Source of the DNA: Agelas oroides | Taxonomy: Eukaryota; Porifera; Demospongiae; Agelasida; Agelasidae | Direction of reading: 5' to 3' | Assembly: GCA_949130485.1 (NCBI GenBank) | Contig: OX422195.1 | Coordinates: 6,812,566 to 6,876,565, forward strand | Length of the DNA stretch: 64,000 nucleotides | In this document: one piece after another, positions 3,989 through 63,498 of the stretch | Layout: every line of letters begins with the position of its first letter | Position numbering within the stretch: the first letter of the stretch is position 1 | The notes under the pieces: generated by a model | Seen by the model: only the letters and a program-made list of their open reading frames with translations | What the model was told of the DNA's origin: nothing | The model's database searches: none | Position numbers and translations under genes: made by a program

Positions 3989-4047
3989 TAGTCTCGGAGC
4001 CAGACCCTCGCACACAGAGTGCGTGCGAGGGTCTGGTTCCGAGACTA
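3989..4047. repeat. 59-bp TAGTCTCG palindrome (MITE-like)
   Basis: Near-perfect palindrome: tagtctcggagccagaccct on the left and agggtctggttccgagacta on the right. The ends match the TAGTCTCG/TAGCCTCG superfamily described at 9134, 44729, 47427 and 59061. I see no 9-bp direct repeat around this copy. Confidence 0.7.
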
Positions 4048-32425: not shown

Positions 32426-34496
32426 ATGCGTGCGTGCGTGCGTGGAGTGGAGGAAGGATCGAGAAAGGAGAAAGGGAAGAGAAAAGGACATCTTCCACAC
32501 TATGGAAATATGATTTGACTATGGTCTTCATATAACCAAGTGCACAGGGAGGGTTGTTCATCAAGTAGATGTACATGTACTGGTTTGCAAAGAACAAACA
32601 AGTTCACATGGATTGAGGCACGTAGCCCCATGCCCCTCCTAGGTATGATACAGGGCAGTTGACCATGCTCTAGTTCCCTGCCAACATGAGAGACTGGGGC
32701 TTAGTACACTGACTCACTGGTCATTGCATATGCAGATGATGGGTCTTGAGAGGATACCCCCACCGCCCTTCTTCTTCTTCTTGGCTGGAATGGGACAACA
32801 CACAATAGCTACACCATGCTAAACACTGCTGAAATAACACAATGTAGCTTGGTAACCGAAACTTGACAACATTTCAACTAGTTGATTTGACCATTACAAA
32901 CATAAAAATATTTTAGAGTATAAATCAAGTAATCTGATTGGTCAGTAGCAGGTTTCTAAATAGCGTAGATCCCTTGGTCTCAGCGTCTAATTACTATTTA
33001 GATGTTACGAGGCAAAAACAGAGGAAAGTGAAAGCCAGCCGTCACCAAGAATAGACCCAGGACTCCTGCATGGTTTGAACCGCCAGCACTCTACCACTAA
33101 GATATGACCATCAGACTACCACCAACCCTTGGAATCCTCCATAATTCGCCTTATAGCGTCCTTATTTCTAGCTGAGGCGAGGTGTTTAACGAACATGTAT
33201 AGCCATTCACAGAGTAACACAGTAAAACAAGCTTACATGTTTCAGTTCTCTTTAAGAGCTCAATCAGCACATTGATGGCTGCCTGAAGGTAAGAAAGAGA
33301 GGGCAGAAGTACGTACAGTTGGTGTTCATCAAGCTCATGCAGAATAGGGCTGCCACGATATATCGTATGTCGTTATGTCATGACATAAAGTAGTCTCGAC
33401 ATGATATGACATACGCCAAGACTATATCGATATTTGTAAACAGTGTGCATTTGCATAATTACTAAGCTGGGATTTACCTGAACACACAAGAAGCTGACAC
33501 GAAATGTAGGAAATTTGAGCCAACAGACCTATATTCCTACTTGTGAAAGGTCACATGTACTCGTAACTTACCAAACACTAGCATACACTAAGTTAATGAG
33601 TCACTTAAGACTTTTTTCATGCAGTGACAGATTACAATTTCAGAAAAGAACCTCATGTCATGACATATCGTCATATCGTGACATAAAATTACATGACATA
33701 TGATATAGAATTTTAGCCATGTCATGGCAGCCCTAATGCAGAATGATGGATTGATTTGACTGTGAACAGTGCCTAAAGTAATCGTAATCTCCAAAAAAAA
33801 GCCTTTCTCCCACTCCACCGAAGAGGGAAAAGAAACAAATGAAAACAGACACCATTTGTTACAATTGCCCAATCAGTCAAGTGCAGGGGATCACATGTAT
33901 CTTGGAGATTGTAGGTGACATTGCATTGCATTGCAGGGTTTCATACAGGATTTTTTCCTGGGGGAGCCAGGGATGCATGCAAAGGGCGCATGCACGTCAG
34001 TATACCTGCTTGGGTTTCGCAGACTTTAATGACATTCTGGACATATTTAAGGACAAGAATCGTCAGATTCAGCTATAATACATTAGGTCTATACTTATGC
34101 TGTACTTTGTTATTGTATTGTATACCCTATTGTAGCTGTTGAGGTAATTATGACATCATAATTTTCAAATTTCTGGGGGGGGGGGGGGGGGGAATCCCAG
34201 TGTCCCCCCCCCCCACACTCCCCTCTGTATGAGATCCTGCATTGAGAGTATATAGTTGTGCTGAGGCATACAGCTTTAGGGACAGCATGTGTGAAAACAA
34301 GCCTATGGAAGAGCCAATACCCATGGACATAAGAAAATTACGATGTGTATACGAAATAGGACACAATTCTTACAGCTGGGGCTCCATCAATCTCATCCAG
34401 AATGAGGCAATTGGGTCTCGAGTCAGCCGTGAGCACTGCCTGCATCTGTGTAGCCGACTGGATGCGCTGGTGAAATAGCTCTGGACTGCGATCATC

Positions 34497-37500: not shown

Positions 37501-40340
37501 CTCTTCCTCCACGGAGTCTCTGAGTCTGGCAAAGGGGACTGAGAGCAGCTGGAACTTGGAGGAGGAGAACATGCTCTGCTGGGAGGACTGTAAGCAAGCA
37601 ATGGAGGAGAGAAATGGGAGGGAAACATACACTGCAAAGATGGCTGTCAATGACCTAAGCGCCTTTTACCTAGCCTTGTTCCTAGGTCCCTGCCCAGCTT
37701 CCCATCACTCAGCTAAGTGGGGAGGGCCTGAGAACATTTATCATGTGAGCAGGACACAGCAAAATGGTGAAAATACTCAGAATGAAAAGGCAATATCGCA
37801 TGTTGTTCAATCAACATACTACACACTTGACACCTTTTGTATGCGTATGACAGTCACCCCTGCTAGCTTGGTACATGTGGTAGGTTGCCTAGTACAATAG
37901 CTCTTCTTGCTGGTCTGAGCCGCAGCGTGCCCACACTCAATTCTACCATCTATTCTAGCACTACCACACTTGCACATATAAGAAAGCCTACCTCCCCTCT
38001 CCCTCCAAACTTGGAGCCTGATTTGACCCGTAGGTAGATCCTGGTGCCATCACTGCCGGTGACTGTAACATGAAGTCCAGGGGGGGCCCGTGTCAGCACA
38101 TGGGAGTGCTGCTGCAGTCGAGGACTCGCCGAGGAGTAACTTACCGACTGGGAGCTTGGGTCTACTGTCAAAGGGCTGTGTGGGTCTTCATACAAGTCAT
38201 CCACATCCATGGTGGGTCTCGGACTGAGGGTGTGGCTTGTAACATCTCCAGTCGGTGTGGTCTTCAGAGCTCTGTAAGTGTCTTCAAACTGATCCATGAG
38301 GAAGTCCCTGCGACTAGGCGTGGTGTTGGTATGGCCTGGCTCCAGCTGAGAGGGGTCTAGAGTTCTCTTGTATCTTGATGCAGAGGGTGGAGTGGGGGTG
38401 GGAATCGGGTGGTCTCCTGCCTGACTACTGGACCGAGATGGTGTCTTCATTGGAGATGACCAATGAGAGTCCACCTTGTTCCCCTGTGATTCAGGGGCAG
38501 TGAGGGAGCCCCTGGTTTCGGCCCTGGTTAGATCTTGATCATTCCCTCTAGGGTGACAGCTATCTCTCTTTCTTCTCTTGGGACTATGCCCCACAGAATG
38601 ATCATCATGTGAGGGAAAGCCAGTTGGTGAGGGAGATGAGGGGAGGGAGTAGGGAGATGGAGGAGAGTAGGGACATCCATCGTCAGCCTCCTTCATATTG
38701 CGGTCTGCTTCTCTTGTGCGTGTCTGGTTCCTTGAGCCCTTATCTTGCACATGCATCACAGAAGTCTGACTGTCCACAGCTGGAGCCGACTCAGGGAGAG
38801 ATGCAGCTCTTATACTCATTCTTGTCCTTTGAACCTTTACTGGGGGGCCTGAAAAACAGAGACACATAAAATGGTTGGAGAGGTATAGTGAAATTGGACT
38901 ACAGTTTAGTAATCACGTGCACAATTGTTCTAGTAGAAATACATGTACACAGTGGGGGTGAAGTAATTTGCATTTTTCCACAATTGAGTGGGGTTCACAA
39001 AGTAGCCAGCGAGAAAAATCATGCCATGACAAATTGAAAAGGATTTGCTAGCAGGCTTGTAAAGATTTTATTGCACAGACTGAGAGCTTACATTTCCGTA
39101 ATAGAATAGTTATTGTGTAGAAAATATTACAAAAAGCACATAATGGTAAGTACAAAGAGTTTGTTGCAGTGAGTTCATTAACGTTCAATTCTTACACCCT
39201 ACTACCAGACATCTAGCTGCCATGCAGTGTCAGAGGCATAAGACTTGATGCACTCTCATGGCACTTATAACAATTATCTCCTGTCAGTGACCTCACTCAC
39301 GGGGAGTGTCATCAATGTCCGAGGGAACAAAGGGGAGAGGACTCTCCTCCATGGGTCTCTTGCGGGAAACCCCAGGGGGAAGGAAAGGGCTAGCAAGGGA
39401 AAGTGCACGCCGGGAGGGTGGAGAACAGCTGCCATTACCTGCAGGTACAGAGAGGTATACATACACTACTGAAATAAATGTCACATTGGGACTGCAGCAA
39501 AGTTCTCAATGTTCAAATGGCCCTATGCACTTTGGAGTCACTAGCACTTGTTTGCCGGAGATTACAACCAAAAACATCACACACACTGCCGAGGGCATCA
39601 CTTGTGATTTGGAGATATTCCTGAGCATGAGTGAGATTTAACGTGTCCACTCACCGTTTTGGCTCATGCTCAGCTAAAGACACTGCACTGTTGAAGTTTG
39701 TCATTACGTAAACATTAACTACTTTTTTTTTTACATCTACCAGTTCATAAAACAATTTGGCATGGCCTTCCTGCTTCGAGGTACAAGAAAAGAGCCAATA
39801 AACAGAGTGAGGACTTCAGTTACTAAGCACAAAATTAGCCCCTAGTGGACATTTGTGGTCAACAGTTAATACTCTCTACACCCAGTGGTGTAGCCAGGAT
39901 GAGCAAGTTACGTGGGCACAACATGGGCACACCCAGCGCGTGCGTAACATGCATCTGGCACAGGCCCGGGTATGCCCGGGTGTAGCTACGCCACTGTCTA
40001 CACCCCATGCCTGAAGCTTTGGAGGTTACCAGCATGGTGCCCAACATCCTTGCTTGAACTTTGACCTCAACTGGACAACCAGTATGGTAAAGTGGGGTTA
40101 GCTCAAAGCCCTTTTTGTTCAATAGCAGTCAAATATAGGATCATTGTGTATTTATGTCAACAGCTGTTGGTCATCTGGCCATCCACCACCCGAGTATCCC
40201 ACCATGAAAACAGATGCTCCCTCACGGACACAAACTATTCTGGATTTCTCCTTCTAGTTGAAACACTCACTCTCCTCCTGCTCTTTGAGCATCTCAAGCT
40301 CTTCTGCAAACTGGCTCTCGAAATCATCCTCATACTCCAT
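25901..40340 (-). CDS. CHTF18: Chromosome transmission fidelity protein 18 (CTF18 clamp loader), complete
   Basis: Twenty-five exons (minus strand): 40340-40271, 39438-39301, 38848-37992, 37587-37501, 37379-37327, 36471-36321, 35942-35745, 35545-35513, 34760-34663, 34497-34374, 33282-33237, 32784-32718, 32372-32279, 31970-31872, 31138-31008, 30654-30518, 30120-30068, 29999-29829, 29334-29185, 28333-28203, 27626-27542, 27416-27364, 27275-27158, 27049-26998, 26019-25901. The total is 1104 codons plus stop, every phase matching. It is the large subunit of the alternative RFC complex that loads PCNA, partners DCC1-CTF8 and works with Pol ε and in sister-chromatid cohesion. Landmarks: acidic N-terminus [34 protein letters not shown], Walker [10 protein letters not shown] (about 535-543), Walker [11 protein letters not shown] (about 593-602), IICICNDQ, and the conserved C-terminus [14 protein letters not shown]. 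Exon 3 is a long Ser/Pro-rich disordered region; exon 23 is a low-complexity linker. The exon 16 acceptor was chosen for phase and is the least certain. Confidence 0.93.
27707..27958. repeat. Pogo/mariner-like element, copy 2 (truncated)
   Basis: Starts TACAGTAGAACCCC and shares gggcttccggtatatttccg and aaggctaagcagaggctagt with 11193-11685. The second half is missing; a tagcctcg palindrome (27959-28003) sits at the break. Located in CHTF18 intron 20. Confidence 0.65.
27959..28003. repeat. 45-bp TAGCCTCG palindrome
   Basis: tagcctcgtacccaggctc, a G-run, then gagcctgggtacgaggcc. Short member of the TAGCCTCG family, abutting the truncated pogo-like copy. Confidence 0.7.
28607..28846. repeat. 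MITE related to 2199-2424
   Basis: cataagaatgagtaagagtg at the left and ctcttactttagccacctgt at the right are inverted. The interior aaaattattgaaccgtacta and ggtggtaaattct match the copy at 2199-2424 with substantial divergence. Located in CHTF18 intron 19. Confidence 0.65.
29418..29531. repeat. (AAAT/AAAC)n microsatellite
   Basis: Tetranucleotide array alternating aaataaat, aaacaaac and agatagat variants in CHTF18 intron 18. Confidence 0.9.
31548..31742. repeat. Bipartite MITE, copy 2 (inverted)
   Basis: Module 2 (gttacattccccagacagag ... ctgtctggggaatgtaac) is followed by module 1 (ttgttggatgttacccctag ... ttgctaagcaacatccaaca). This is the reverse orientation of 42224-42404. Located in CHTF18 intron 14. 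Confidence 0.8.
32000..32230. repeat. 26-bp minisatellite in CHTF18 intron 13
   Basis: The unit is aatggcagagccacagacag + acgacc, about 8 copies. It fills most of the 308-bp intron between the exons at 32279 and 31970. Confidence 0.85.
32374..32442. repeat. (TG)n microsatellite forming the CHTF18 exon 13 acceptor tract
   Basis: On the minus strand this is (CA)n running directly into the acceptor CACACAAG|GTATGC at 32373, with no other pyrimidine tract. Confidence 0.85.
32935..33010. repeat. Half-copy of the 54813-54970 palindromic element
   Basis: ggtttctaaatagcgtagat, cccttggtctcagcgtctaa and ttactatttaga match one arm of the element at 54813-54970. Located in CHTF18 intron 11. Confidence 0.6.
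33036..33112 (-). other. tRNA-like sequence (pseudo-tRNA or SINE piece)
   Basis: The minus strand has a good box A (TTAGTGGTAGAGTGCTGG) and, 32 bp later, a box-B-like CCTGGGTCTATTCTTGG, spaced as in a tRNA. The 7-bp ends (GGTCATA and TGACGGC) do not pair as an acceptor stem, so it is not a functional tRNA as it stands. It is most likely tRNA-derived repeat DNA. Confidence 0.35.
33345..33735. mobile_element. 391-bp hAT-like MITE with 8-bp target duplication
   Basis: Perfect 11-bp TIRs TAGGGCTGCCA / TGGCAGCCCTA are flanked by atgcagaa at 33337-33344 and 33736-33743. An 8-bp duplication is typical of hAT elements. The interior repeats variants of atgtcatgacata and is itself nearly palindromic. 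No transposase. Located in CHTF18 intron 10. Confidence 0.8.
33934..34240. repeat. CAGGGTTTCATACAG element, copy 1
   Basis: Left gcagggtttcatacaggatt and right ctctgtatgagatcctgc are inverted. The interior includes gacattctggacatatttaa, gtcagattcagctataatac, ctattgtagctgttgagg and a G18 run. Copies: 55901-56137 (near full) and 45481-45575 (internally deleted). Located in CHTF18 intron 10. Confidence 0.75.
34499..34620. repeat. (TG)n microsatellite at the CHTF18 exon 10 acceptor
   Basis: About 120 bp of TG with tgcg variants. On the minus strand it is (CA)n ending at the acceptor CACACAG|TGATGATC (exon start 34497). Confidence 0.9.
34765..35345. repeat. Purine-rich minisatellite in CHTF18 intron 8
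   Basis: About 21 copies of a 26-30-bp unit (ggaagaagagtgacggacgg + aaggga) with no pyrimidine-rich interruptions. On the transcribed minus strand it is a 570-bp pyrimidine tract that ends at the acceptor of the Walker A exon (CCTCCTCAG|GTTGCTC). Long open frames on the minus strand through it are repeat artefacts. Confidence 0.9.
37111..37214. repeat. 52-bp tandem duplication
   Basis: aggtctcatcagctgcactg ... cttatgcaac occurs twice in tandem with two substitutions. Located in CHTF18 intron 5. Confidence 0.9.
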
Positions 40341-43600: not shown

Positions 43601-46600
43601 GGGCAACACTGTTGTAGAAGAGCGTATGAACAACATTCTGCCTATGTAACACACTATACTGTATAGCTGGAAATATTGACAGTCTTTAAATTTGGCGGCT
43701 TGGCCCCAACCCGAGTGTAAAAAATATTGGCGGAATTTAAATTTGGCGGTGGCACCTCGCAGCATATTACGTCATCATAAACATTGCACGCACATTTATC
43801 AGGGAGCATTGCCGTCCTTTCGCTTGAAGTACTTGAACAAAGCCATGAGTTCGCAAATTTACAAGAAACATAACTGGCAGCGTGCTAGTGCCGAGCTTAG
43901 CCTAGCTATATGTACAGCTCATGTAGAGGGGTGCCAGGCGGGACCAAGAACATTACTGTTGGCTTACGTCATTACATGTTGTGGATGAAAATAATATTGG
44001 TGGATTTTAATTTGGCGGTTTCAACCCCGACCGCCAAACCACCAAATTTAATTCCCCATCAAATTTTCCGGCTATATGGTATTTCTAAAGCTATATATAT
44101 TAATCAAACGAAACCAGTAGACTTATGGAGCCCTTTGATGTCAGCCCAATCTCCAGATATTTAATTTGAGTGAATCCCACACTTGCAGGGATTTGCTTGA
44201 TGATCAACATGTGTTCAGCTGGTGGCTTGGGAAGGGGAGCCTGTTGGATTTCACCAACGAGGAAGCCAAGGAGTGGTGGCATGGACAGCTGGATAAGGTG
44301 TGCTGAGTCCAGATACCATATAACGGGAAAGGCCTGGGAACGAGGCTATCCAGATACCATATAGCAGGTTTCTTTTGTGGAAGAAAACTTTTGTAAATTT
44401 CACATTTTATCAGCAATTTGCTCATGGACTTTGTTTGAAACGAGCCTGGGAACGAGGCTAGCACTTTGAATATCACTAAGAGTTTATAACAGTAAGAGTG
44501 TGCAACTTCCATATGGTTTCTACACCCACCATCTGGACAGTATGACGTAGGCAATCAGCAGTGAATATGTTTAGCAGGTACTTAACATGAAGCCATTCTA
44601 GGTGCTAGTGTCATTAGCTAAGTGAACACTCTAGCAAAAGTCCGCCTCTTTGCTGCTGTGTTTTCACAGCTAAGCATATTCACTGCTGATTGCCTACCAC
44701 ATACTGTCCAGATGGTGGGTGTAAAAACTAGCCTCGTTCCCAGGCCCTCGCACAGCTTCCCGTCGCTTGCAGTACGGTTAAGCGGGAGAGGGCCTGGTAC
44801 ATTTTCTCACGTGAGTGACGTCACGGGTAGAAAGGCGGTAGAAAGACTTTAATTGAACGTGAGCGAGCATGACTAAACTGTTGCCGTGTGTCTTCACTGT
44901 CTTGGCTTGGTAAAACTCTCTGTCCTCTGAACTGTCTCGTGAAGAGCGACATAAAAGCGCCTTTGTGCGCTGCCATCTTTCGACTCGGAATAGCCGTGCT
45001 CTAGTGCGTGCGGGCGAGCGAAGTTTTTTGTGGTTTACATGACGCCCACGTTCGCATAATTTGCCCTGTCCGTGACGTCACTCACGTGAGAAAATGTACC
45101 AGGCCCTCTCCCGCTTAACCGTACTGCAAGCGACGGGAAGCTGTGCGAGGGCCTGGGAACGAGGCTATGTAAAAACCACATGGAAGTTGCACACTCTTAC
45201 TCTTGGTATCGCTGTGTACCAGTTTCTTGTTGCTTCATCATATGATCTGGTTGTCCTCCTCAGACACTTGCCTATGGTATAGACGGCTGGAAGTGTGATG
45301 CAGCTGAACCTTACATACTGGAGATAATCCTCCCCCTGGGCAAGCAGGGGCTGGTCACCAGGAGGGAGTACTCTGAGGCATACTACGCTGACATCTTTGA
45401 TTACACCCGACAGAAATTGGGCAAAGACAGACTCATCATGTCTAGAGCTGTGGATGGGTCAGTTACTGTTTTTCCAGTATCAGGGTTTCATACAGAGAGA
45501 ACGGGAGGGGAGGGGGGGGGGGGGGGGGGGATGTTGGGATTCCCCTAACTAATCCTGTATGAAATCCAGATTATGGTGTCATAAAATATTCAATTGGCCA
45601 GTACTTGTACACAGTTAAACTCTTCAGCCCCTTAGTAACATTCCTACTTGGACACTACAGTGTGGGCCCTCAACTTATCTTCTTAACATCTACTGTAGAT
45701 TGGGAAATTTTCACGTGAAAAATAGTTTGCGTAAAAAATTTTCATTGTGTTAAATTTTCGTGGTTTCGTTCGATCCGTGGACATTTTTTTTACGTTTGAC
45801 GGTTACAATATGGACGAGCGCCTGGAGCGTTCGTAGCGTTTAGTCTACTACCAGGTGTCGGGAGAGCCAGGTATCGCTGGCTGTAGTGCTGTAGCTGTCA
45901 GGAGTAGTAGTTGATTGGGTGTGGATGTGCGTGCACGCTATTCATTGACCATCGCTGCACCTAAATTTTTTTTTATTCGTGTGTTAAATTTTCACGGTTG
46001 GTCTCGACCGCGAAATTATTTTAACAGCCACTCTACGGTATTTACACCTCACGTTGCTGTGTACATGCAGGTTTGGTCCCATCTACTTGGACTTCAGTCC
46101 CAGGAGAGTGATGTTCTCTGGCTGGATCGGGGACAATGACCCCACCTTTGAGGGAATGGAGGACGCTCTTCGGAAGTACCTGCAATCAGCATGGGCAGGT
46201 ATGTGTTCTCTTCTATAGTGGCTGTTTTTTTTTTATCTCTAAATGGTGTTGCCTTGGTATTCATCCCTCCCTCCCTCCCTCCCTCCCTCCCTCCCTCCCT
46301 CCCTCCCTCCCTCCCTCCCTCCCTCCCTCCCTCCCTCCCTCCCTCCCTCCCTCCCTCCCTCCCCTCCCTCCCCTCCCTCCCTCCGCTCAGGCTATGCCAA
46401 CTTTGGTTCAGACATTGGTGGCTATAGGCAGGGCACTGGGAAGTATGGCAGGACAAAGGAACTGTTTGTCCGCTGGTTCCAATTGGGAGCCTTCTCCCCA
46501 CTCATGGAGAACGGAGGGTACGGAGAGCATCGTCCTTGGAAGTATGATAACCAGACACTGGAGATTTACAAGAAGTGAGTTAAATTAAAATTTGCCACTG

Positions 46601-49600
46601 GATGTGTGGTGAGAAATATGAAGTAGTGCACTGTCACTGTGTCACTCTGTGACTATTAATGTACTAAAGGACGCACAGACCTTTGGCATCCACTTACCCT
46701 TTGATCTCAGATGTAGATCAACATTATGTTTTGGGTTGCCTAGTAACCAATTAGTACCATGTTGTAAATCATCCCTTATACCAAACGTTTTTCATGTGTA
46801 CGTGTGTGACTTATACAGCCAACCTACCTGGCTCCTAAGCTGTCTTTAAAATTTATGTACCATGCAAGCTGCCCCATGAATAGCTTCAGCTTTGTAGCAT
46901 GTGAGACGACTACTTTAGTTTGTTCGCTACCATAGAGACTGCTTAACTCTTTAACCATTTACTAAGAGTCTTTATTAGGAGGCTATGGATACCTTCTTTG
47001 GTCCGTATTTCAACTTCTGCTTGGAGCTAGCACTGGAAACTTGAGCCAAAGCTTCTTTGAGAAATTCTGGAGTCAGCCTCTAACTCTTCTCTGACTGCAA
47101 CTAGTGTCAGGTGTGTCATCATAAGGCTATGAATCTCATTAACAGGCGTAGAAACCACTCCTCCCCCCTTGTAGGGGCACCATTTCTGGTGCATACATAC
47201 TGTAGTCAGTTTTCAGTCAGGAGGAGCGTTTTCTGGTCGGAAGGCCCTGACCATTGAAAGCTCACTAATGAGTAGGAGTGGTCAAGGTCATTGAGGCTTG
47301 AGGTGAAATTCAGGTTTAGCACTTCTGAACTTCTCACTCCAGATATCGGCTATTTTACCTACACTTAATAGTCACATAGAGCTTTTAAGCCAGTAAGTGC
47401 ATAGTTTCCTTACGATAGGCACAGCATAGCCTCGTTCCCAGGCCTCCCCCGTTTTTGTTCTTCAGTTTGTGTTCAGTATAATACACGGAAGCAGAAGAGC
47501 AATGAAAAACAGGGAAGGCCTGGGAACACTTATCATGTGAATGATGTAAGGTGGACACGAGGTGGATGTGGGGGGAGTCCACATTCAAATAACATACTAG
47601 TCTTCATCCTTGAGAGCTCCATCGCTAGGCAGGACCCCAGACATTCACACGATCGAGAGTACTTGACTTAAGAGTAGGAAACTTGTACTCAGATTTATTG
47701 CGCACGAATTTGTAGTTGGGGACCGCCCCCCCCCCCCCCCACGTCCACTCCACATCCACTTGTGTCCACGTCATGTGATGTGTTCTCAGACATTCCCCAT
47801 TTTTCATTGCTCTTCCGCTTCTGTGTATTATACTGAATGCAAACTGAAGAACAAAAACTGGGGAGGCCTGGGAACGAGGCTAGGCACAGCACCTATTCAC
47901 TGATCTCAATGTCCATAGTACATTTCTTGCTGCTATGGATGTTTACTTAATTGCTCAAGCTGATGTTTCTCCTGCTACAGGTTTGTGGATGTACACTATC
48001 AGCTGGTGCCATATTTCCTCACCACCGGCTCAGAGGCTTTGGAGACCAATACCAGCTCGCTCACACCACTAGCAGAACATGAGAACTTTATTGAAAAGGT
48101 ACGTGTAGGGCCATGAATGAAATGTATGAGTGAAAGCACCACTATCATACGTCTAACTCACACAAATGTAAGGGAGTCAATTGGGAAGCCTTGCAGCTAC
48201 ACGCAGTTTATAAAAAGCCATATTTTTTACTACAAGTCATGCAAGAATCCGTATCAGTACTACAAATCACACGAGAATCTGTATCAGGTACTACAAGTCA
48301 CATGCGCTGCGTCTGAACGTGCAATGAATCGAAGGTTCATATGATAAAATCATTATCACCGTAGTACCAAGCCATACCAGAAAAAATATCACTTGTTTGT
48401 TGCCGTCTGTATTGTTACAAGTGCGGTGATATTACAGATGGCAACAAACTGGTGATACTTATATAGTAGCACTTATTGTGCGTAGGTAGATGCAAGTATT
48501 ACATCATTAGATCAAATTGCTCAATTACTAAATTAGAAGGTTTGTGCTAGCAGAAAAACCTCTTGCAATGTTCCTGTGGTTAGCTACCTCAGTGCAGGTG
48601 CCCGCCCCCAATATCTGGATCCACAGAGTGCTAACCATGTTGTCGACCTTGCATTCTTGAACTGCCACACCACACAAGCACAGCACAGCACAGGGAAATA
48701 TAAGATGTATTCAAGTTCTTGAGCGATAGCCTGGCCCTGCATTGCGCTCCAACACCTGGCGTATGCCGTCTCCCGTCGCGGCGTTGAGCTCTCGATGGTA
48801 GCCGCGCACCAGGTCCTTGATGGTGCCGAGTTTGGACATGGTCACATGCCTTCGGGAGCGCGCAGTGGTCCTAGGCGCGGGACTTGAACAGAAAAATGAA
48901 CTGGGTGGGCACTTGCACAGGGAAATATAAGATGTATTCAAGTTCTTACCAGATTTTCATGCAGAGGAGGTCGGACACGGTTGAATTAAAATGGCTGAGG
49001 TCACACTAATTGATCTTGGATATTGCAAGATAGAAAGCTTTTTTAGCTTTTTCTATAGCCTTGAATCTTGATTTGAAAACTGGGGTCCCACCTCAGTAAA
49101 AGTCGAGAGAGCTAGAGATACGAAAAATCAATTAGTGTGACCTCAGCCATTTTAATTAGTAAAATTCAACTGTGCCCGACCTCCTCTGCTCTATATGCTT
49201 GTGTTTCATTTTCTTTATGTGGGGGCTTTTTGATTTTGGTTACAGTTACTTACAAGTTACAAGGATAGTTTTATTTTCAATGTGTGACCTCTTGCAGCTG
49301 ATAGATGACTTCCATCCATCCACATTCAACTACTTGCTGGGCAAGAACATTCTGGTGGCCCCCATCCACACCAACACCTCCTCCGTGAGTGTGACCTTCC
49401 CTGAGGGTAGCAGCTGGGTGGACTGGTGGAACCACAGCACTGTTTTCACTTCAAGTTCTTCTCAAACCTTCACCAACGTACCTCTGGAAGACTACCCAGT
49501 GTTCTTCAGGACAGGTAGATTCATTGCATGTTTGATATCTGTAATGCAGCCTTAAGAAGTGAGAACATTCCTGTTTGCACAGTCATACAAAGACACTGTC

Positions 49601-52600
49601 TGTGAAATGATACCAACTCTCCCTCAGGCTCCTTTCTTCCTCTGCGTGTGACTGAACAGACCCCAATGCTGGGTAGGAGTGGGTTTGCTGGCTACCTCAG
49701 ATGGCTGCTACACTCTCCAACAGTGACAGAGAGCCCAGTGAGCTTTGCTGTCAGAGAGCAGGAAGAGGGAGGGATTGTTGCCTCCTATAGGTGAGCCTGG
49801 TTAAACATAACATACCACACTTGTGTTAAGATGAGCATATTCAGGGTGTTTCTGAGCTTCCTTGAATTCGTTGCTGAATGCTTTTATTGGGCCGCTTTTA
49901 TTATTTAGTATATACACAATTAATGAATATCATTAGGACCCCAGAATATGCTGACATGCAAATCTGTACGAGTTTGGGCTGATTTTAGGGCTGAACAAAT
50001 CAGTATGAGATGGCTTAATTTTGCTGGGAACTAACACGCAAATTCGTACGTCAAGAAAAAAATACGCATCTCTCTTTCTCACAAAGATCCTCAGACATCA
50101 TCAGACTGGCATTGCCTATCAAGCAAACAGGGAAGGGGGTGTCTATACCTCTAACATCTGCACGAGTTAGTAGCAACTGTAAGTAACTAACACTCGTACC
50201 CATACAAGATATGGTGTCCACCCGTGCCGCACCCTGGTTGGAATTTTGAATTACAGTAGTCGGACCATGTGCATTGCTGTTTGCCGCACCATGCCATGCC
50301 AGGGCTGTCTCTAGATGTCTTCTGACCGGGAATAACTATTGAATTTTAAGAGGAAAGTGTATGGCATTGATCCAAAGGCGATTGTGAAGACGTCTGAAAT
50401 ATCTTGTACTGATCGACCATTTTACAGCATGAGGACAATCACATGACATCACGTGAGTATTACATAACAATATACTATAGTCTCCTCCTCACTTAGCTAA
50501 ATACAGTTCCTATAATTGTTCAATGAGTCTCTCTGGTGCTCGAATTGTCCGAGATGACTGACGACGTACTGGCGGTTCATGTGGCCCAACTGTGCCACAC
50601 TCCCGAGGTGTCACTGGTTGATCTAGTGGTGTAACCGTGTCACAGTCTGAGGATTCCGACGTGTTCAATGGTTCCTCACCAGTGACCACTGGCACTGGTT
50701 CTGACGATACTGGGGTACATCCTGGAGCTTGACGAATTAGGTGATCTACATGCACCTTCCGCTGACGACCACCCTCCAGTTCCACATTGTAGCTCAAGGA
50801 TCCCATGCATGACTGCACAACGCCTGGCTGCCACTTCTCTGCATTAGGCCTGTAGTCCCGCACCCACACTCTGTCACCTTGAGCAAATACTTGTGGTGCG
50901 GAACTCTCTGGCTGTTCAAGACTATCCCTCATTCGGTCCACCATGCTGGGTACTACCATCGAGAGATGTGTGCGTGGAATTCATCCAAATATAATTTCCG
51001 CCGGTGTCTTGCCAGTGCTGGTATGTGGAACATTCCGGTATGTTCTAAGGAATGCAGCAAGGGCACTGTTAATGTTGGTCACTCTCACTTGTTTTTTTTA
51101 GCCACTGCTTGACATTCTTCACCATGTTCTCGGCTAATCCATTGGTGGCAGGGTGATAAGGGGGCGACTTCCGGTGAGAAATTCGATTCCTCTTCAGAAA
51201 GTTCTCGAATTCCACAGCTGTGAACTGTGGCCCATTGTCTGACACTAGGAGTCTCGGAAACCCATGAGTTGCAAAAACATCCTCAAGAACTTCTATCGTG
51301 CGCCCAGCTGTTGTTGACAATGGCATATGTCGAACCTCAGGCCATTTACTAAAGGCATCCACCACAACTAGGAAGTGCTTCTGATTCCATTCCCCAAAGT
51401 CAACATGTATTCTGTCCTGTATGAGTATGCACTCAAAATAAGCGCCCACCGCTGCATCCGAGCTGCTGCCAGTGTTGGCACTCCTTGGTTGTGACCTAGG
51501 ATCTTGCAGAGTGGTCGGTGGTCCGTGACCAGTGTGAAGGGCCTGCCACACAAGTACTGATGAAATTTCTTTACGGCAAATACAATTGCCAATGCTTCTC
51601 GTTCAACTTGTGCATAGTTGACTTCTGCTTGAGTCAACACCCGGGAAGCATATGCCACAGGTTTTTCCTGCCCTCCGATGACATGCATCAGGCATGCTCC
51701 CAGCCCATATGATGACGCATCACAGTAAAGCTTGATTGGGGAGTCGACACTGTAGTGGGCCAAGACAGGGGTTTTGCTGACTAGCTCTTTTGCCTTTTTG
51801 AAGGCATGCTTGTGCTTCTTCCCCCACGACCATCTTGCATGCTTCCTCAGCAAGCTGTACAGTGGGTGTAACACACTGGTTATTGCAGGTAGGAATTTCA
51901 CATTGTAGGTCATCGCGCCTATGAATGACTTGAGCTCCATCTTGTTTCTTGGACTCTTTGCAGACAGTATATTGTCCACCCTTTCCTTTGTCAGCCTGAC
52001 TCCTTCTCGTGAGATTGTGTGCCCCAAAAATTCCAGTTCATCCTGAAAGAATCGGCACTTGGACAGCTTCACTCGTAGACCGTACTGTTGCAGGCGTCGA
52101 AACACTTGACGAAGATTCTCCTCGTGTTCGCTTCTTGTCTTCCCTGTTACAAGGATGTCATCGATGTAGCATATAGTTCCTTGACACCCTTGCAGCACAA
52201 TGGACATTGCCTTCTGCCAGATTGCAGGTGCGGAGGCAATTCCAAAGGGTAACCGACGATAGCGAAACAGTCCCAGGTGCGTGTTGATTGTCAGGTAAGG
52301 TTGGCTGCTCTCCTCAACTTCCATCTGTTTGTAAGCCCTGGCCAAATCCAGTTTGGAGAATGATTCACCATGTGCAAGTGTTGAGAAGACTTCATCTGGT
52401 GTTGGCAATGGAAATGTTTTCATCCGTAGGTGTGGGTTGACCGTTGTTTTGAAGTCCGCACATATCCTTATGCCTCCGTCCTTCTTCTTGACAACCACTA
52501 TTGGAGCCGCCCACTCACTCTGGTCCACAGGCTCCAGTTCCCCGTCTTCCACTTGCTTCTGTATGGCTTCTCCAACTTGATCTCGCAATGCAAAAGGGAC

Positions 52601-55600
52601 TGGTCTACTTCTGCAGAATCGTGCATCCGCTCCTGTCTTCAGTTCAACTTCTGCCTTGATGCCCCTCAGCAGCCCTAGCCCTTCCTTTGTCACCTCTGGA
52701 AACTCATTCATCCATATGGCTGAGTGTAGTGTGTGTACTCGGGGGTCACCAACATCTCCCCGGTTGAGCATCTTGGGCCAGTTGAGGCGGAGCCGGTATA
52801 GCCAGTCCCGCCCTAGCAAGGGTAGCTGATTGTCAACCTTCTCCACAATAATGAATCGGCCTTTGACCAGCTGTTGACCGTGAAACACTTCCACAACTAT
52901 CTCCCCCATGGTTGGCAGTGCGGTGCCATCATACTGGCGCAGGATGACAGACGAAGGCTCCAGCCCGACTTGTTTCAGCTTTGCTCGATATAATGCAGCC
53001 GGGATGGTTGACAGTTCAGCTCCAGTGTCCACTTCAAAGTCAATGTTCTTCCCTTTGATTTTCAGTGTCGTTATTAGTTTCCGGTACTTGCTGCCACCCT
53101 GTGCTACCTTGTGGACACCTGCCAGTGTGGCACCTAGCTCGTCGCTCTCATCCCCAGATCCACTACTTCCGCTGTCAGCTTCCAGCACATGAGTGTTCCT
53201 TGATCTGGTCCCAACCTTTGCCTTGCTACTTTTGCAAACCCGGGCTAAGTGTCCAATTTTGTGGCATTTGTGGCAACGCTTGTCCTTATGAGTGCATTTT
53301 GCTGCCACGTGGTCAGTGCTTCCACATCTGTGGCACTTGAGTTTTTCGGTTCGTCTCATTTGGTGAGTGGGTGCCTCGTCTGCCTCTGTATTTCCTCCTT
53401 CGAACTGGAGGTGCTTTGCCTCCTTGGCCACCGCTTCCATCGCCCTCGCTCGCTCCAGCGCCTGGGCAACGGTGAGTTTCTGCACGCACAACAGCTCGCG
53501 CTGGATCCGTGGGTCCTTCAGCCCGCACACGAGTTGATCGCGTAGTGCCGTGTCCAGATAACTGCCAAAGTTGCATGTTTTCGCGAGTTTGCGTAGTTCT
53601 GCCATATAGTCGGTGACCCCTTCTTCGTCACTTTGCTGGCGCTTGAAAAACTTGAACCGTTCTGCGATTTCCACTGTATCAGGGCGATAATGTTCAGCCA
53701 ACTTTTCGACTATTGTGTTCAGGTCCAGTTCGCCCAACGGGGTGGGACTCACCAGTGTCTTGAGCTTAGAGTACGCGGTCTGTCCTATCCGCGTTAAAAA
53801 CAGAGCCTTCTGTTTGGCTTCCTCCACCCCATGCGCCACACAGTAGAAGTCAAATCGCTCTTTGTAGTCTTCTATCCTTTCAGTTTTGGGGTCGAACGTG
53901 TCTGCAGCTCGATGGTCCTCCATGATTCAACGGATCCTCGTCGCCACTGAAATATCTTGTACTGATCGACCATTTTACAGCATGAGGACAATCACATGAC
54001 ATCACGTGAGTATTACATAACAATATACTATAACGTCTTGGTGCATTCCAGTAACACTCAAATCCGTACGAGATAGGTAGCATACAAAACAACTAGCACT
54101 CTATATCATACGAAAATGGTGCAAAATAGATAGGCCTATTTTGGGAGATTTTTGAGTAGTAGGGTAGATGCTGGTATTATGAGACAGCTAAACTGAATGA
54201 CTACTCATTAGTGTAATGTATTTTTTCAGTTCCATCTAAAGGTTTGAAACATTTCTCCTGAGAATGTACCACTTAGAAAATAAAATTCGTATTTTTCCTC
54301 CTAGGCAGTGGTTCTAAAAGTAAGAGCCTATGAAAATCACTTTTGCAGGTATTATGAGTCGGCTGCTGGTATTATGAGTCACCAGGTGCTTTGTTGATTG
54401 AAACATTTTCAGTTGGAGTTCAAACTGTATCCTAGCATTTAATAACCTCTCTTTGTGCTGATAGTAATTTTTCTTCACTAGAGCACCTTCCATTCTAACA
54501 TGGTATTAATGTTAACATACACTGTTCAGGGTTCATAGTTTGGGATCCCTAATCATCAAACCTTGAAAAATACCACAGAGTAAACACATTTTGATGGGAA
54601 AGTTGCTATATAATGGCACCCGTATGTGCTCTAAATGGACGTCGAGTTTGGAAATTTTAGGAGTAAAAGTTACATGTGAACCCATAATACCCTCTGACTC
54701 ATAATACCTGCATCTACCCTACCATCGGCATATTCTGGGGTCCTATATCATTACATTGCTTGCGGACATGACGAAGACAGTTGATGTCGTCAGTATATGA
54801 GGTATTGTATGGCTAAATAATAGTTAGACGCTGAGACCGAGGGATCTACGCGATTTAGAAACCCGAGGGCCCGAGGCTGTAGCGCCCGAGCGCAGCGAGG
54901 GCGCTACTTAAGGGCCCGGCGGTTTCTAAATCGCGTAGATCCCGTCGGTCGAAGCGTCTAACTTATTTAGAGTGTGCTACTACAACGCAACTTTTCAAAC
55001 CAGGATGAGGATGGAACAACTTAGCAATGAGCTGGTTGCAGGGCGACGTCATGTCTACTGTGCGAAAAAGGCAAAACAAGCTTCACCTTCGCTGTTTGGC
55101 GGCTCGATGCGCCCTTGGCTCCACCTGCTAGGCTGAAATTTACGCCCATCCGCACCAGCGCCTGCCCCAAAAGAAGCTCCGCCCCTCTCTCCACGTTCGA
55201 AGGCAGCAGAGCGTAAGGGAAGACCACAGACTATTCTATGAAACTTTGGCATAAATGGCGAAGACCGTGTGTCAAGAAACTCAGGTTGACACTATCACAA
55301 ACCTGACAGTCCGTCTGCACTGTTCCCACCATAATTTCAATGTCAGCATCCATGATGGATTTGTTTACGTCTGTCCGTGTCCGTAGCAACTAATTTTCAT
55401 GTTTTGTATCAACAATAATGTGTTAGCTATATCAACACTTTTTTAATGTATCCATAAACAATATTGTTGTTACAAATGTAAGTCTTACCCAGGGGGGTGG
55501 ACTCTACATGTAGAGTCCACAGACGGTGGCTCTAAGTGATTTAGAGCCCTCACACTGACCAATCAAATTCAAGCATTTCATGATAGCATACTCTAAGTTG

Positions 55601-56485: not shown

Positions 56486-57533
56486 CTCTATTTTTCTGAG
56501 AATTATTTACACCAGTATTTCTAATTCATTTTTTCAAGAGAATTATGTAGACATGATCTTCCCTGTCACCTGCATGCACAGTCTAATGACTCACCATACA
56601 CATGCAAGAAAGCAATGGTTGCCTCAGTAAAGGACCCTATCTATAACCGTATGCCATGATACCTAGAGTTCAGAAAAGTGTCATGTAAAGAGAAGGGGTC
56701 CAGCTCAGCAAAGGCTCAAGCAGAAAACCTGCCTACATACATGTATATAGGGACCCAGGGTAATGTGCCAGGGGACAACATCAAGCTTGGTCTCATGCCC
56801 AGATCCCTTTCCAAAAGGGGTCTGGGCATGAGACTACATCGAGCTATTAGCAGATCAGTGAGGTCCTAGATCCTCCATGTGTCTCAATAATGAGGGAAGA
56901 AAAACCCATTATCATGGTGATGGCTGTCATGATGAATTCAGAAAGTGTAAAGAACGCACTCAACGTTGCCTAGCTATGAACCAACAGTATAATTTACAGT
57001 ACACAAGAACAAATTTTAGGGATGGCATGCCAAAAAGTATGCAAACAAGGTAAAGATGACATAAAAGTGAAGGTAAATATACAGAGTCCCATCCCTTCAT
57101 CTTTTTCACACCGGAGTAGACCTTTCAATTGCGCGCGCCCTTCTCCGTAGGTCTGTAATCTGGCCAGTGTTCCGGTGATTCCGTAGCCTCGTTCCCAGGC
57201 TCTCCCCGTGAGAGTCTTTCATGCAGTCGTAAACAAGTTCTGAGTTTACTATAGCTATATACGCTACAAGTTAATCATTACCAGCGAGTGCATGACGACG
57301 CTAGCTTGATCAACGGCACGACAAACTTCATTCTGTCTCTGTGAAGTGGACTAGTTCGAAATACTGGAGCTGAGTTACAATATCTGTGGTATAATTTGTA
57401 CATGTACCTGCAGACGATAATGGCTATAGCTCTAATTAGCACTTTAGAAGTTGTATGCAACAATGAGTGCTAGCTTACAAGCATCATGTTTGGTCAGTCA
57501 GTGTTGATAAGCAGTTGGTTGAGAAAGACAGTG
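56486..57533. other. Intergenic, no gene recognised
   Basis: GH31 3' flank. Contains a 49-bp palindrome (56788-56836) and a lone TAGCCTCG arm (tagcctcgttcccaggctct at 57185). No convincing coding sequence. Confidence 0.5.
56788..56836. mobile_element. 49-bp palindromic element with 9-bp target duplication
   Basis: tggtctcatgcccagatccc, then ggggtctgggcatgagacta. Direct repeats catcaagct (56779-56787) and catcgagct (56837-56845), 8 of 9 identical. Minimal member of the TAGTCTCG family. Confidence 0.75.
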
Positions 57534-57633: not shown

Positions 57634-58663
57634 TAGACATGCGCACATTATGCCGGCATAATTTAAAGCACAATAGGCAGCTATTAGCATAAGGACAATC
57701 TTGAGCATAATGTAATGGGTAAGCGCAACGCGCTTACGTAATTATTTAACCTTTGAACCTAGTGAGAACTACTAAAGATTGCCCAACAATGCCCACGTGT
57801 AAAGTAACTATATACCGCTCACGCTAGGTACTAGGGTAGATGCAGGTATTATGAGTCAGAGGGTATTATGGGTTCACATGTAACTTTTACTCCAAAAATT
57901 TCCAAACTCGATGTCCGTTTAGAGTACATACGGGTGCCATTATATAGCAACTTTCCCATCAAAATGTGTTTACTCTGTAGTATTTTTCAAGGTTTGATGA
58001 TTTTAGGGATCCCAAACTATGAACCCTGAACAGTGTATGTTAACATTTATACCATGTTAGAATGGAAGGTGCTCTAGTGAAGAAAAATTACTATCAGCAC
58101 AAAGAGAGGTTATTAAATGCTAGGATACAGTTTGAACTCCAACTGAAAATGTTTCAATCAACAACGCACCAGGTGACTCATAATACCAGCAGTCGACTCA
58201 TAATACATGCAAGAGTGATTTTCATAGGCTCTTACTTTTAGAACCACTGCCTAGGAGGAAAAATACGAATTTTATTTTCTAAGTGGTACATTCTCAGGAG
58301 AAATGTTTCAAACCTTTAGATGGAACTGAAAAAATACATTACACTAATGAGTAGTCATTCAGTTTAGCTGTCTCATAATACCAGCATCTACCCTACTAGC
58401 ACGAGGATCGCAACGTCTGACTCTTGCAACAGCTCATATCAGAGCTCGGGTAGTGTGCCCAAGGAGGCGGAGTCCACATCTTCCGAGACGACTATATCAT
58501 TGCTGGACCGACTCAAGGCTCCTACGCGATCAGAACTGTCTCATAAACGCTGTGTACACATTGGGCATAATGGGGAAGATAACTGAGCATAATTGGTAAA
58601 ATTATCAGGAATAAAGGAATAGCATAATAGGATAGCAATGAAGCATAATGTGCGGGAGCCTAG
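57634..58663. repeat. Tandem repeat copy A (contains a 565-bp TIR element)
   Basis: tagacatgcgcacattatgc, taagcgcaacgcgcttacgt, caacagctcatatcagagct and attatcaggaataaaggaat match copy B (58684-60268) in order, about 90-95% by eye. Copy A is interrupted by 57832-58396. Reading from about 58440 gives a Ser-rich stretch followed by LLDRLKAPTRSELSHKR, which I associate loosely with N-termini of sponge and cnidarian transposase-like proteins. It is not an intact gene. Confidence 0.75.
57832..58396. mobile_element. 565-bp TIR element GTAGGGTAGATGC, copy 2
   Basis: Inverse of 54159-54722. Starts tagggtagatgcaggtatta and ends ccagcatctaccctac. Inserted in copy A of the tandem repeat. Confidence 0.85.
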
Positions 58664-59109
58664 TCTGGGGGTAGTCTCGCAAGTAGACATGCGCACATTA
58701 TGCTGGCATAATTTAAAGCACAATAGGCAGCTATTAGCACAATTTCGAGCATAATAGGTAAGCGCAACGCCCTTACGTCATTATTTAACCTTTGAACCTA
58801 GTAAGGAGTACGGATTGCACAACAATGCCCACGTCTGAGTCTTGCAACAGCTCATATCAGAGCTCGAGTAGTATGCCCAAGGAGACAGAGTCTACATCTT
58901 CTGAGTCGATTGTATTATTGCTGGACCGACTCCTGCTCCTACGCGATCAGAACTGTCCCGTAAGCGCTGTGTACACATTGGGCATAATGGGGAAGATAAC
59001 GGAGCATAATTGGTAAAATTATCAGGAATAAAGGAATAGCATGATAGGATAGCAATGAAGTAGTCTCGTGCCCAGACAACTTTTCGCGATCGCCGAGCGG
59101 GAAAGTAGT

Positions 59110-59863
59110 TAGCCTCGTTCCCAGGCCCTGCGCGTTCGTCGCTTGCAGTACGAAATTCGCGCAGAGGGCCTGGGCTGATGTATCCCGCAGCGCTTATCAA
59201 AGCTCTAATCCTATTGGTCAATATATTATACACATTTATATGCGCTTATGCGCCGTTGCCCTAACAACACCCTAAATTAACCCTAACCCAACCCTAATAA
59301 ACCCTAACCCAACCAATAAGATTCGAGCTTTGAAATGAGCTGCGGTACTATAGCCTGGGCTCGTTCATCACGTGATGTGTGCCGCAGCTTACGTCACGTC
59401 CATTCTACTGGAATCAATGATGTCATAGATGAGCTAGCGCCTTGTTTACCGTTGAAAGAGGCCCCCCGAGATCACAGTAATGGTTAGCGTGCAAACTTAC
59501 CTAAGTGTTAAAAGTCTCGGCAGCGGAAGAGCACAAGCTGCCATGCTTAGCTGGATAGTAGACGTATATATTCAGATACCTTGGCCACATCGTGTTACTA
59601 GGTCGAACCTGGATTTCGGCTCCTCGTCTTCTTCACCTCGAGTTTACTATTGTAGTCTATCGTACGCGCGTGACCTGTTTCAGGTTCTTCCAACTCCATT
59701 TATGGTTATCTGGGTACAACCAATGCTGCAACACGGCGCGGCCATATCTGGTGTGACGTAAAAACGCGTCCTGCGGCACACATCACGTGATGAACGAGCC
59801 CAGGCCCTCTGCGCGAATTTCGTACTGCAAGCGACGAACGCGCAGGGCCTGGGAACGAGGCTA
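59110..59863. mobile_element. TAGCCTCG element nested in 59061-60240
   Basis: Ends tagcctcgttcccaggccct and agggcctgggaacgaggcta, with gcgttcgtcgcttgcagtac / gtactgcaagcgacgaacgc. Perfect 9-bp direct repeats gaaagtagt at 59101-59109 and 59864-59872. Its left arm is itself split by 59177-59352. Confidence 0.9.
59177..59352. mobile_element. 176-bp element nested in 59110-59863, with telomere-like core
   Basis: Left gatgtatcccgcagcgctta, tcaaagctctaatcctattg pairs with right caataagattcgagctttga, gagctgcggtactata. The core has several ccctaaccc / ccctaa units, like (TTAGGG)n. Perfect 9-bp direct repeats gcctgggct at 59168-59176 and 59353-59361. Confidence 0.85.
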
Positions 59864-60264
59864 GAAAGTAGTCTGGTGAACTGCCTATACCGTTTTGGTT
59901 CCAATATTTTGAAATCACTATGACGTCACGTCAACTGGATTCTGAATTCAAAAGCGCTCTAGTAAACAGCGAACTCCTAGACAGCCTACTCGTGCTCCTT
60001 TCGATAGATACAATAGCCTAGTCTACACGCGGCAGCTAGGGTTGCCCGATCAATGTCCATTTCGCTAGTAGATCGTTGGCACGCAATGTGGAATGCAATC
60101 TTCGATGACGTCAAGCGTTAAATTAGAAAAGAACAATGCGCCAGCATTCCGGCGCACTTGAACGAAAATGGAATAGGCAGTTCACCAGACCCTTTTTTCC
60201 GGCGGGCGCGTGCGAAAAATGCGGTCTGGGAACGAGACTAGCAATGAAGCATAATGTGCGGGAG

Positions 60265-60378
60265 CCTACTCGCAAGCCAGACCCTTTCCGCGCAGCGCCG
60301 ATTGCTTTCAGTAAGCGTGCCGATACTGAAAGCGATCGGTGCTGTGGAACAGAAAGAGTCTGGCTTGCGAGACTAGTC
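60265..60378. repeat. TAGTCTCGCAAGCC palindrome
   Basis: ctcgcaagccagaccctttc on the left and agagtctggcttgcgagact on the right, with a smaller ccgattgctttcagtaagcg / ctgaaagcgatcgg hairpin inside. Family TAGTCTCG. Confidence 0.7.
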
Positions 60379-60880
60379 TGGGGGAATGCCCCCCACAGGA
60401 AATTTTTAGAAATTAGATGCTCTGAGATTGCTTCTGAGGCCATTTTGGGACAGAAACAGAGCCGCGTGGCTCGCGGAGTATTGCTTCCAATTTTTGGCTG
60501 TCCATGTATGCATTTGCTAGGCCAGCTGACTTCGAATTTCCACGAGAGAAGGTATTAAGGTTGGCAGGACAGCAGGTGGGGTGAAGGACAATGCTTGAAC
60601 ACCTGAACTAGCGATTTATGCATGTATTTACACGCATGTCCTTTCATCTCAGCGGCATAAACAGCTTACGCACGAGTTCCGCACTGGTCCTCCATGAACA
60701 AACTCACATAGCTGCAACCAGACTCGTTTGAACAGCGGTGATTCTCAATAGCAGCGAGACTAGTGGACCACTTTCAAATGGTAGGACACTTAGTTAAGCG
60801 GTGTATATAAAATCTTTTGGAGGTCAACAGGGGGGTTCGAGCGAGCCCCCTCGAACCCTCCCTGCCTATGGGCCTGAAAG
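60378..60880. repeat. Dispersed repeat (3570-5060 family)
   Basis: attagatgctctgagattgc, ctaggccagctgacttcgaa, tttcatctcagcggcataaa, gagttccgcactggtcctcc and ctgcctatgggcctgaaa correspond in order to blocks between 3785 and 5070. The copy ends about 80 bp before the Reeler gene ATG. Confidence 0.65.

Positions 60881-60962: not shown

Positions 60963-63498
<2,536 letters not shown>

Follow-up and report, generated by a model that had tools for sequence, protein, structure and literature searches.

Several described systems resemble the elements reported here. Stowaway- and Tourist-type MITEs are short, have termini common to many families that one transposase is presumed to cross-mobilise, and generate target duplications of 2-3 bp. 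The elements described below, from the sponge Agelas oroides, are like them in size and in their common termini and differ in duplication length and in the hairpin nested within each end. P elements duplicate 7-8 bp, and the RAYT proteins associated with bacterial REPINs are another enzyme class. Like our elements, REPINs combine conserved short sequences with a hairpin and inverted ends, as doublets and singlets, but they are bacterial and RAYT-associated, and passages of their description mention no 9-bp duplication (PMC3116915). According to passages on the barley Mutator-like element (MULE) Hvu_Abermu, its insertions carry duplications of 9 bp (267 cases), 8 bp (10) and 10 bp (1), its terminal repeats are about 100 bp long and its terminus is 5'GGG (PMC9168764). 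In passages on Merlin and IS1595-like transposons, these elements have terminal inverted repeats with a conserved terminal 5'-GG and make 8- or 9-bp duplications (PMC8101967). Excerpted sources give 7-8 bp for KDZ elements (Kyakuja, Dileera, Zisupton) (PMC12730594) and 8 bp for hAT elements (PMC2874221). A length of 9 bp thus points, on the passages cited, to MULE or Merlin (PMC9168764, PMC8101967).

We analysed a window of 64 kb, the whole stretch C13:6812566-6876565 of a 259-Mb genome assembled in 141 contigs. A typical end consists of an outer box, TAGYCTCG, followed by a hairpin closed by CCAGRC and GYCTGG. The elements and ends identified, in window coordinates, were as follows.

3989-4047, unstranded: near-perfect palindrome of 59 bp with such ends; no duplication seen.
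9134-9456, unstranded: element of 323 bp in which all four boxes are present; one-mismatch duplication TACAAGAAT / TGCAAGAAT.
27958-28005, unstranded: palindrome of about 48 bp with such ends; no duplication seen.
44331-44348, minus strand: end without a partner found, from box matches in the window.
44443-44460, minus strand: end without a partner found, from box matches in the window.
44729-45167, unstranded: element of 439 bp whose end contains a hairpin, with perfect terminal inverted repeats of 98 bp; 9-bp duplication TGTAAAAAC at 44720-44728 and 45168-45176.
47427-47882, unstranded: element of 456 bp; 9-bp duplication GGCACAGCA at 47418-47426 and 47883-47891.
56788-56836, unstranded: palindromic element of 49 bp whose left end (TGGTCTCA) is decayed; by eye, one-mismatch duplication CATCAAGCT / CATCGAGCT.
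57184-57201, plus strand: end without a partner found, from box matches in the window.
58672-60375, unstranded: outermost nested element, split by 59061-60240 and 515 bp long without the insert; exact 9-bp duplication GTCTGGGGG at 58663-58671 and 60376-60384.
59061-60240, unstranded: element split by 59110-59863, 417 bp once the insert and one duplication copy are removed; duplication GCAATGAAG at 59052-59060 and 60241-60249.
59110-59863, unstranded: innermost of the three nested elements, 754 bp; duplication GAAAGTAGT at 59101-59109 and 59864-59872.
62220-62243, unstranded: palindrome of 24 bp, TAGTCTCGCG-GCTA-CGCGAGACTA; duplication ACTACGACC / ACTACGACG, one mismatch.

Both sequence blocks that mark the ends are strongly enriched in the window. 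TAGYCTCG occurs 23 times against 1.25 expected, a count reached in none of 100 shuffles, and TTCCCAGRCC (with one mismatch at most) occurs 30 times against 6.5 expected, again with no shuffle of 100 as high. When the window was scanned for inverted ends bordered by an exact direct repeat of 5-12 bp, five 9-bp cases were recovered, all with TAG.CT ends; no TAG.CT ends had an exact repeat of any other length in that range. Seven of the 31 inward-facing end pairs in the window carried a 9-bp duplication with one mismatch or fewer (5 exact), compared with none when the right flank of the same 31 pairs was displaced by 1-20 bases. By script, 25 of 39 relaxed ends (17 plus, 22 minus) fell outside any duplication-bearing pair. 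The four exact duplications reported in the initial annotation (44720/45168, 47418/47883, 59101/59864 and 59052/60241) were all present, as were its three with one mismatch, around 9134, 56788 (by eye) and 62220. The fifth exact duplication (58663/60376) is an addition to that list and resolves the cluster at 58.7-60.4 kb into three nested elements with one duplication each. The same annotation had called the interiors unrelated, which is true of the middles; several elements are, however, alike over about 67-138 bp at their ends (72-89% identity).

The window also contains 7tm_3, GH31 and Gypsy-type domains, the last in a Gypsy-type retroelement at 50510-53926 (minus strand) with RVT_1, RNase H, protease, zinc knuckle and integrase core matches in more than one frame. 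Two other elements, at 33345-33735 (exact 8-bp duplication ATGCAGAA, inverted ends TAGGGCTGCCA) and 39883-39996 (exact 8-bp duplication TCTACACC, inverted ends CAGTGGYGTAGC), we take to be hAT-like by length and ends. Telomere-like CCCTAA/TTAGGG repeats lie within 59110-59863 and also beside a P copy on C16 (L101).

Across the genome, the exact 18-bp end TAGYCTCGTTCCCAGRCC occurs 5,342 times in forward and 5,615 times in reverse orientation (10,957 in all), whereas the same pattern read backwards, our control, does not occur. Duplication lengths were surveyed in 320,648 bases (64 pieces), a non-random sample made up of the window and loci fetched for an end or a transposase match, in which L059 is counted twice because it lies inside L071. 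We considered inward-facing pairs whose first 14 bases were similar and left out flanks of one or two different letters. Exact duplications flanked 23 of the 81 pairs: 19 of 9 bp, 3 of 8 bp and 1 of 10 bp; lengths of 4-7 and 11-13 bp did not occur. A single copied insertion probably accounts for two of the three 8-bp cases, both with CCAAATCC; 5 of the 19 exact 9-bp duplications come from the window. The 23 duplication-bearing elements range from 42 to 1,704 bp, nine of them being shorter than 110 bp. Hence the group first recognised in the window by its common termini, different middles and 9-bp duplications extends genome-wide (10,957 exact ends), and the tabulation of inverted end pairs in the sampled 321 kb confirmed 9 bp as the predominant length (19 of 23 exact duplications). 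As expected of MITEs, the elements have terminal inverted repeats, and target duplications of a fixed length flank them at unrelated sites.

Outside this genome, the 18-bp end was absent from the viral contigs collection and present in 19 stretches of the genome contigs collection, where about 30 would be expected by chance at equal base frequencies. We therefore accept as real only L039, which holds a complete element, a palindrome of 147 bp that has these ends and the exact 9-bp duplication GTATGCACC. The record of this 6,175-base contig assigns it to a bacterial symbiont of a Poecilosclerida sponge, and the contig has Ig-domain frames. A full-text literature search with 13-letter pieces of the end returned no paper, and none describing these elements was found by title or abstract in the literature searched.

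Many families share these termini. In an all-against-all comparison of 15 elements, eight groups remained even when shared end sequence was allowed to link elements and a single 35-base match was disregarded; the element at 47427-47882, for example, resembles C1:460298-460746 over its length (79%, 469 columns). A first look gave 402 candidates for the family of the 59061 element; the best-scoring 40 come from 19 contigs and match the full length of the query at 93-100% identity. The C1:182083 family (191 first-look candidates) spans 73-93% identity among the matches listed, save the query itself and four short pieces. The two identity ranges point to families of different ages with a common end design. 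For the 58672 element there were 101 first-look candidates, 40 of them scored. Split copies pointing to a longer parent were absent from the best 40 of each of these three interiors (402, 101 and 191 candidates). By eye, a splice-donor-like sequence comes after a start codon in the interiors of the 58672-60375, C1:90830 and C1:182083 families, possibly marking the first exon of a lost transposase or of a captured gene; no single-copy host gene for one such interior (the 58672 family) was found among the matches listed. Two further arrangements were noted. At C1:1253839-1358326 the end pair TAGTCTCG.. and TAGCCTCG.., both in reverse orientation, recurs seven times among the ends listed, at a spacing of 14.6-18.4 kb, probably as a large tandem array, and at L072:154-282 two short palindromic elements stand side by side within the flank sequence CCTTGTCA.

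The ends themselves have a regular anatomy. Folded as single DNA strands, five ends of long elements formed a hairpin in which the box pairs with its partner to close the stem, 7-11 bases in from the terminus, and a sixth stretch, 3989-4047, folded as one long hairpin (z of -2.2 to -10.9 for the six window stretches). An 8-base partner (one mismatch at most) was present in 52 of 90 ends against 3.5 in single-base shuffles, and 78 of 104 ends had the partner G.CTGG within 110 nt, G[CT]CTGG occurring in 8.5% of random stretches. In 14 duplication-bearing elements, two of which (C1:44059 and C1:227526) are probably one insertion, inner boxes filled 22 of the 28 expected places compared with about 1.2 of 28 in dinucleotide shuffles. 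Both inner boxes are missing from C1:182083 and L007:1335 and one each from 47427 and 58672, and the outer-left box is changed in three of the 14.

One variable base recurs in the outer box, the inner box and the partner. Among 104 ends, the three positions read CCC in 50 and TTT in 18, with 10 discordant and 26 partnerless; outer, inner or partner base disagreed in 15 (10 with a partner, 5 without). Among the 77 sequence-distinct ends left once repeats of the same hairpin were removed, the outer-inner combination was C-G in 49, T-A in 21, crossed in 4 and one with A in 3 (Fisher p 4e-14, family relatedness being ignored). Agreement between inner box and partner follows from base pairing. The outer box lies mostly outside the hairpin, and we infer that its agreement is most readily accounted for if a protein recognises GYCTSG at each of the three copies; the alternative is common descent of two lineages, since relatedness among families was not taken into account. 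The covarying base suggests two specificity groups, TAGCCTCG..CCAGGC and TAGTCTCG..CCAGAC. Common mobilisation is well supported. The earlier suggestion that a single transposase mobilises all of the elements is consistent with the data, but the covarying base speaks rather for two specificity groups. The end design, the hairpin partner and the three-way base agreement are new here, as is the match between a predicted deletion product and an existing 61-bp element described next.

Some elements look as if they had collapsed to about 60 bases. A typical long element has four boxes, two per direction, and a deletion between boxes of the same direction can collapse it to a single hairpin of about 42-61 bp while keeping both termini. 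The product predicted in this way from L109, a 295-bp element with the exact duplication AGCCTGAGC, is 61 bp long and is identical in 61 of 61 letters to L105, another locus. L106 differs from the prediction by 2 letters, L103 by one substitution and a two-base gap, and L108 by 13 extra bases. A 9-bp duplication flanks L105 (one mismatch) as well as L106 and its duplicate L107 (both exact), and L108 has one of 8 bp by eye. Collapse in place would keep the duplication, so the duplications of these short copies are compatible with shortening in place, deletion being the probable route. No duplication was seen at L103 or its duplicate L104, where the flanks of the 59-bp element are inverted; in both loci this element is the centre of a larger inverted repeat, and the two loci have identical flanks. 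The 24-bp palindrome at 62220-62243 may be an extreme product of collapse or the remnant of a failed excision.

These results are best explained, with a probability of roughly 85%, by non-autonomous cut-and-paste DNA transposons (MITEs) of many families that have one end design, insert with 9-bp duplications and depend on a candidate trans-acting transposase. This would be a DDE transposase, with GYCTSG as its putative binding site. Made elsewhere, the enzyme would recognise the common end, excise the element and reinsert it via a 9-bp staggered cut. The outer box TAGYCTCG would then abut the target site and, usually after 3-5 bases, CCAGRC would close the hairpin with GYCTGG further in. Deletion between boxes of the same direction would shorten a four-box element to the minimal palindrome. 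We found no transposase with these ends of its own in the loci read (23 of 119 MULE, 10 of 23 Merlin, 2 of 44 PF20700 and 4 of 48 P matches). The long transposase-bearing element with the same ends that the initial annotation proposed to look for therefore did not appear among them, and the lone P candidate proved to be a nested insertion. A Pfam scan of 79 of the 150 listed open frames from end-bearing loci returned mostly host domains (Ig, LRR, NHL, TRAF and TUDOR occur in the frames of these loci), with one DDE_1 and one RVT_1 among 25 of the 31 families. Of the two PF20700 loci read (44 matches in the genome), one has a 20-bp inverted repeat, CCCGTTTAAGG.., and no terminal repeat was found in the second.

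A narrower form of the MITE explanation identifies the missing transposase as a MULE and the elements as MULE MITEs. We hold it tentatively, at a little short of even odds. The 19, 3 and 1 duplications of 9, 8 and 10 bp seen here are much like the 267, 10 and 1 given for the barley MULE in passages of its description (PMC9168764), and the long terminal repeats (98 bp at 100% and 114 bp at 88%) come close to the length of about 100 bp stated there. Further, MULE domains are present in the genome (119 matches), and the MULE at L069 has a 9-bp duplication. However, none of the 23 MULE matches read is enclosed by TAGYCTCG ends. We read 19 of them on both sides (flanks of 1.5 to about 3.5 kb, no more than 1.5 kb in five) and the other 4 on a single side (L059-L078, L096-L099). 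Among the 19, four have ends of their own, GGGATTCGC, GCGAATTTT, GGTCGTTACT and GCGTTTTTT, with duplications of 10, 9, 8 and 9 bp (the last with one mismatch). L065, L069 and L070 represent three MULE families, each with distinct ends, whose duplications measure 10, 9 and 8 bp, and TAGYCTCG elements adjoin some MULE genes (e.g., L075:2267-3097). In addition, the terminus here is TAG, with a hairpin inside each terminal repeat, unlike the 5'GGG terminus of the barley element in the same passages (PMC9168764). The label 'Mutator-like' given in the initial annotation fits as far as duplication length and long terminal repeats go and so far finds no support in the transposase matches read (23 of 119); we claim no membership in Mutator.

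It is unlikely, on the present evidence, that an undescribed lineage of transposases, distinct from Mutator, Merlin, P, hAT and KDZ, uses these ends; its protein would read GYCTSG three times per end in a hairpin array, with C-type and T-type specificities that each drove their own MITE families and with elements of about 60 bp that still transpose. The hAT and KDZ superfamilies (34 KDZ matches in the genome) were judged by duplication length alone: the predominant 9 bp differs from the 8 bp and the 7-8 bp given for them in passages of PMC2874221 and PMC12730594.

A Merlin-type transposase is an improbable source of mobility. The observed lengths agree with the 8- or 9-bp duplications given for Merlin in passages of PMC8101967, and the genome holds 23 Merlin matches, but the conserved terminal 5'-GG described in those passages is replaced here by TAGYCTCG. 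None of the 10 Merlin matches read is enclosed by TAGYCTCG ends, and 3 of the 10 loci have ends of their own, ACGAAGTCC or GACTCCCGCG, with 8-bp duplications.

More improbable still is mobilisation by a P-type transposase, an idea raised by C2:19467786-19472670. There, TAGTCTCGCGGAGCCAG ends with a hairpin and an exact 9-bp duplication (GGCTTTTGT) flank a P transposase with PF21789 in its last exon. By eye, however, the P element has its own inverted ends, CATAGATAGTAGAGGAGAG, and a 7-bp duplication, GTGACAC, within the left end of the MITE, and the sequence across this insertion site is uninterrupted in the MITE L109. A second copy, on C16, begins at the same CATAGATAG without the TAGTCTCG end, and the stretch read for its right side (L102) showed no end of either kind. 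The 3' sides of four of the 48 P matches in the genome were read, and the three others lacked a TAGYCTCG end. We therefore rejected the C2 element as the autonomous partner: its separate ends, the duplication of 7 bp and the second copy show it to be nested inside a MITE. Elements are often nested in this genome, and a single pair of enclosing ends is no proof. The P ends read here (CATAG.., 7 bp) thus differ from those of the MITEs (TAGYCTCG, 9 bp). At the C2 locus (L100/L092), the interval from the transposase to the right end holds a convergent frame of 329 aa (L092:440-1429, minus strand).

Least probable of all is a reading without transposition, in which the copies are structured hairpin RNAs or segmental duplication has spread the palindromes: the single strands do fold well and the L103/L104 and L106/L107 copies sit in duplicated segments, but the 9-bp duplications differ at unrelated sites, the highly similar scored copies of the 59061 family are dispersed over 19 contigs, and no Rfam family matches within the window at gathering score.

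Read as MITEs with one end design, the approximately 11,000 exact copies of the end constitute a natural experiment in cross-mobilisation, in which the positions where families agree reveal the letters that a transposase requires. The four-box layout provides a concrete route by which one deletion turns a MITE into a 60-bp element with both ends. If the unlikely proposal of an undescribed lineage is true, the collapsed elements of about 60 bp would be among the smallest mobile DNAs of animals. Should the collapsed copies still be mobile, they would mark how small a transposable element can be.
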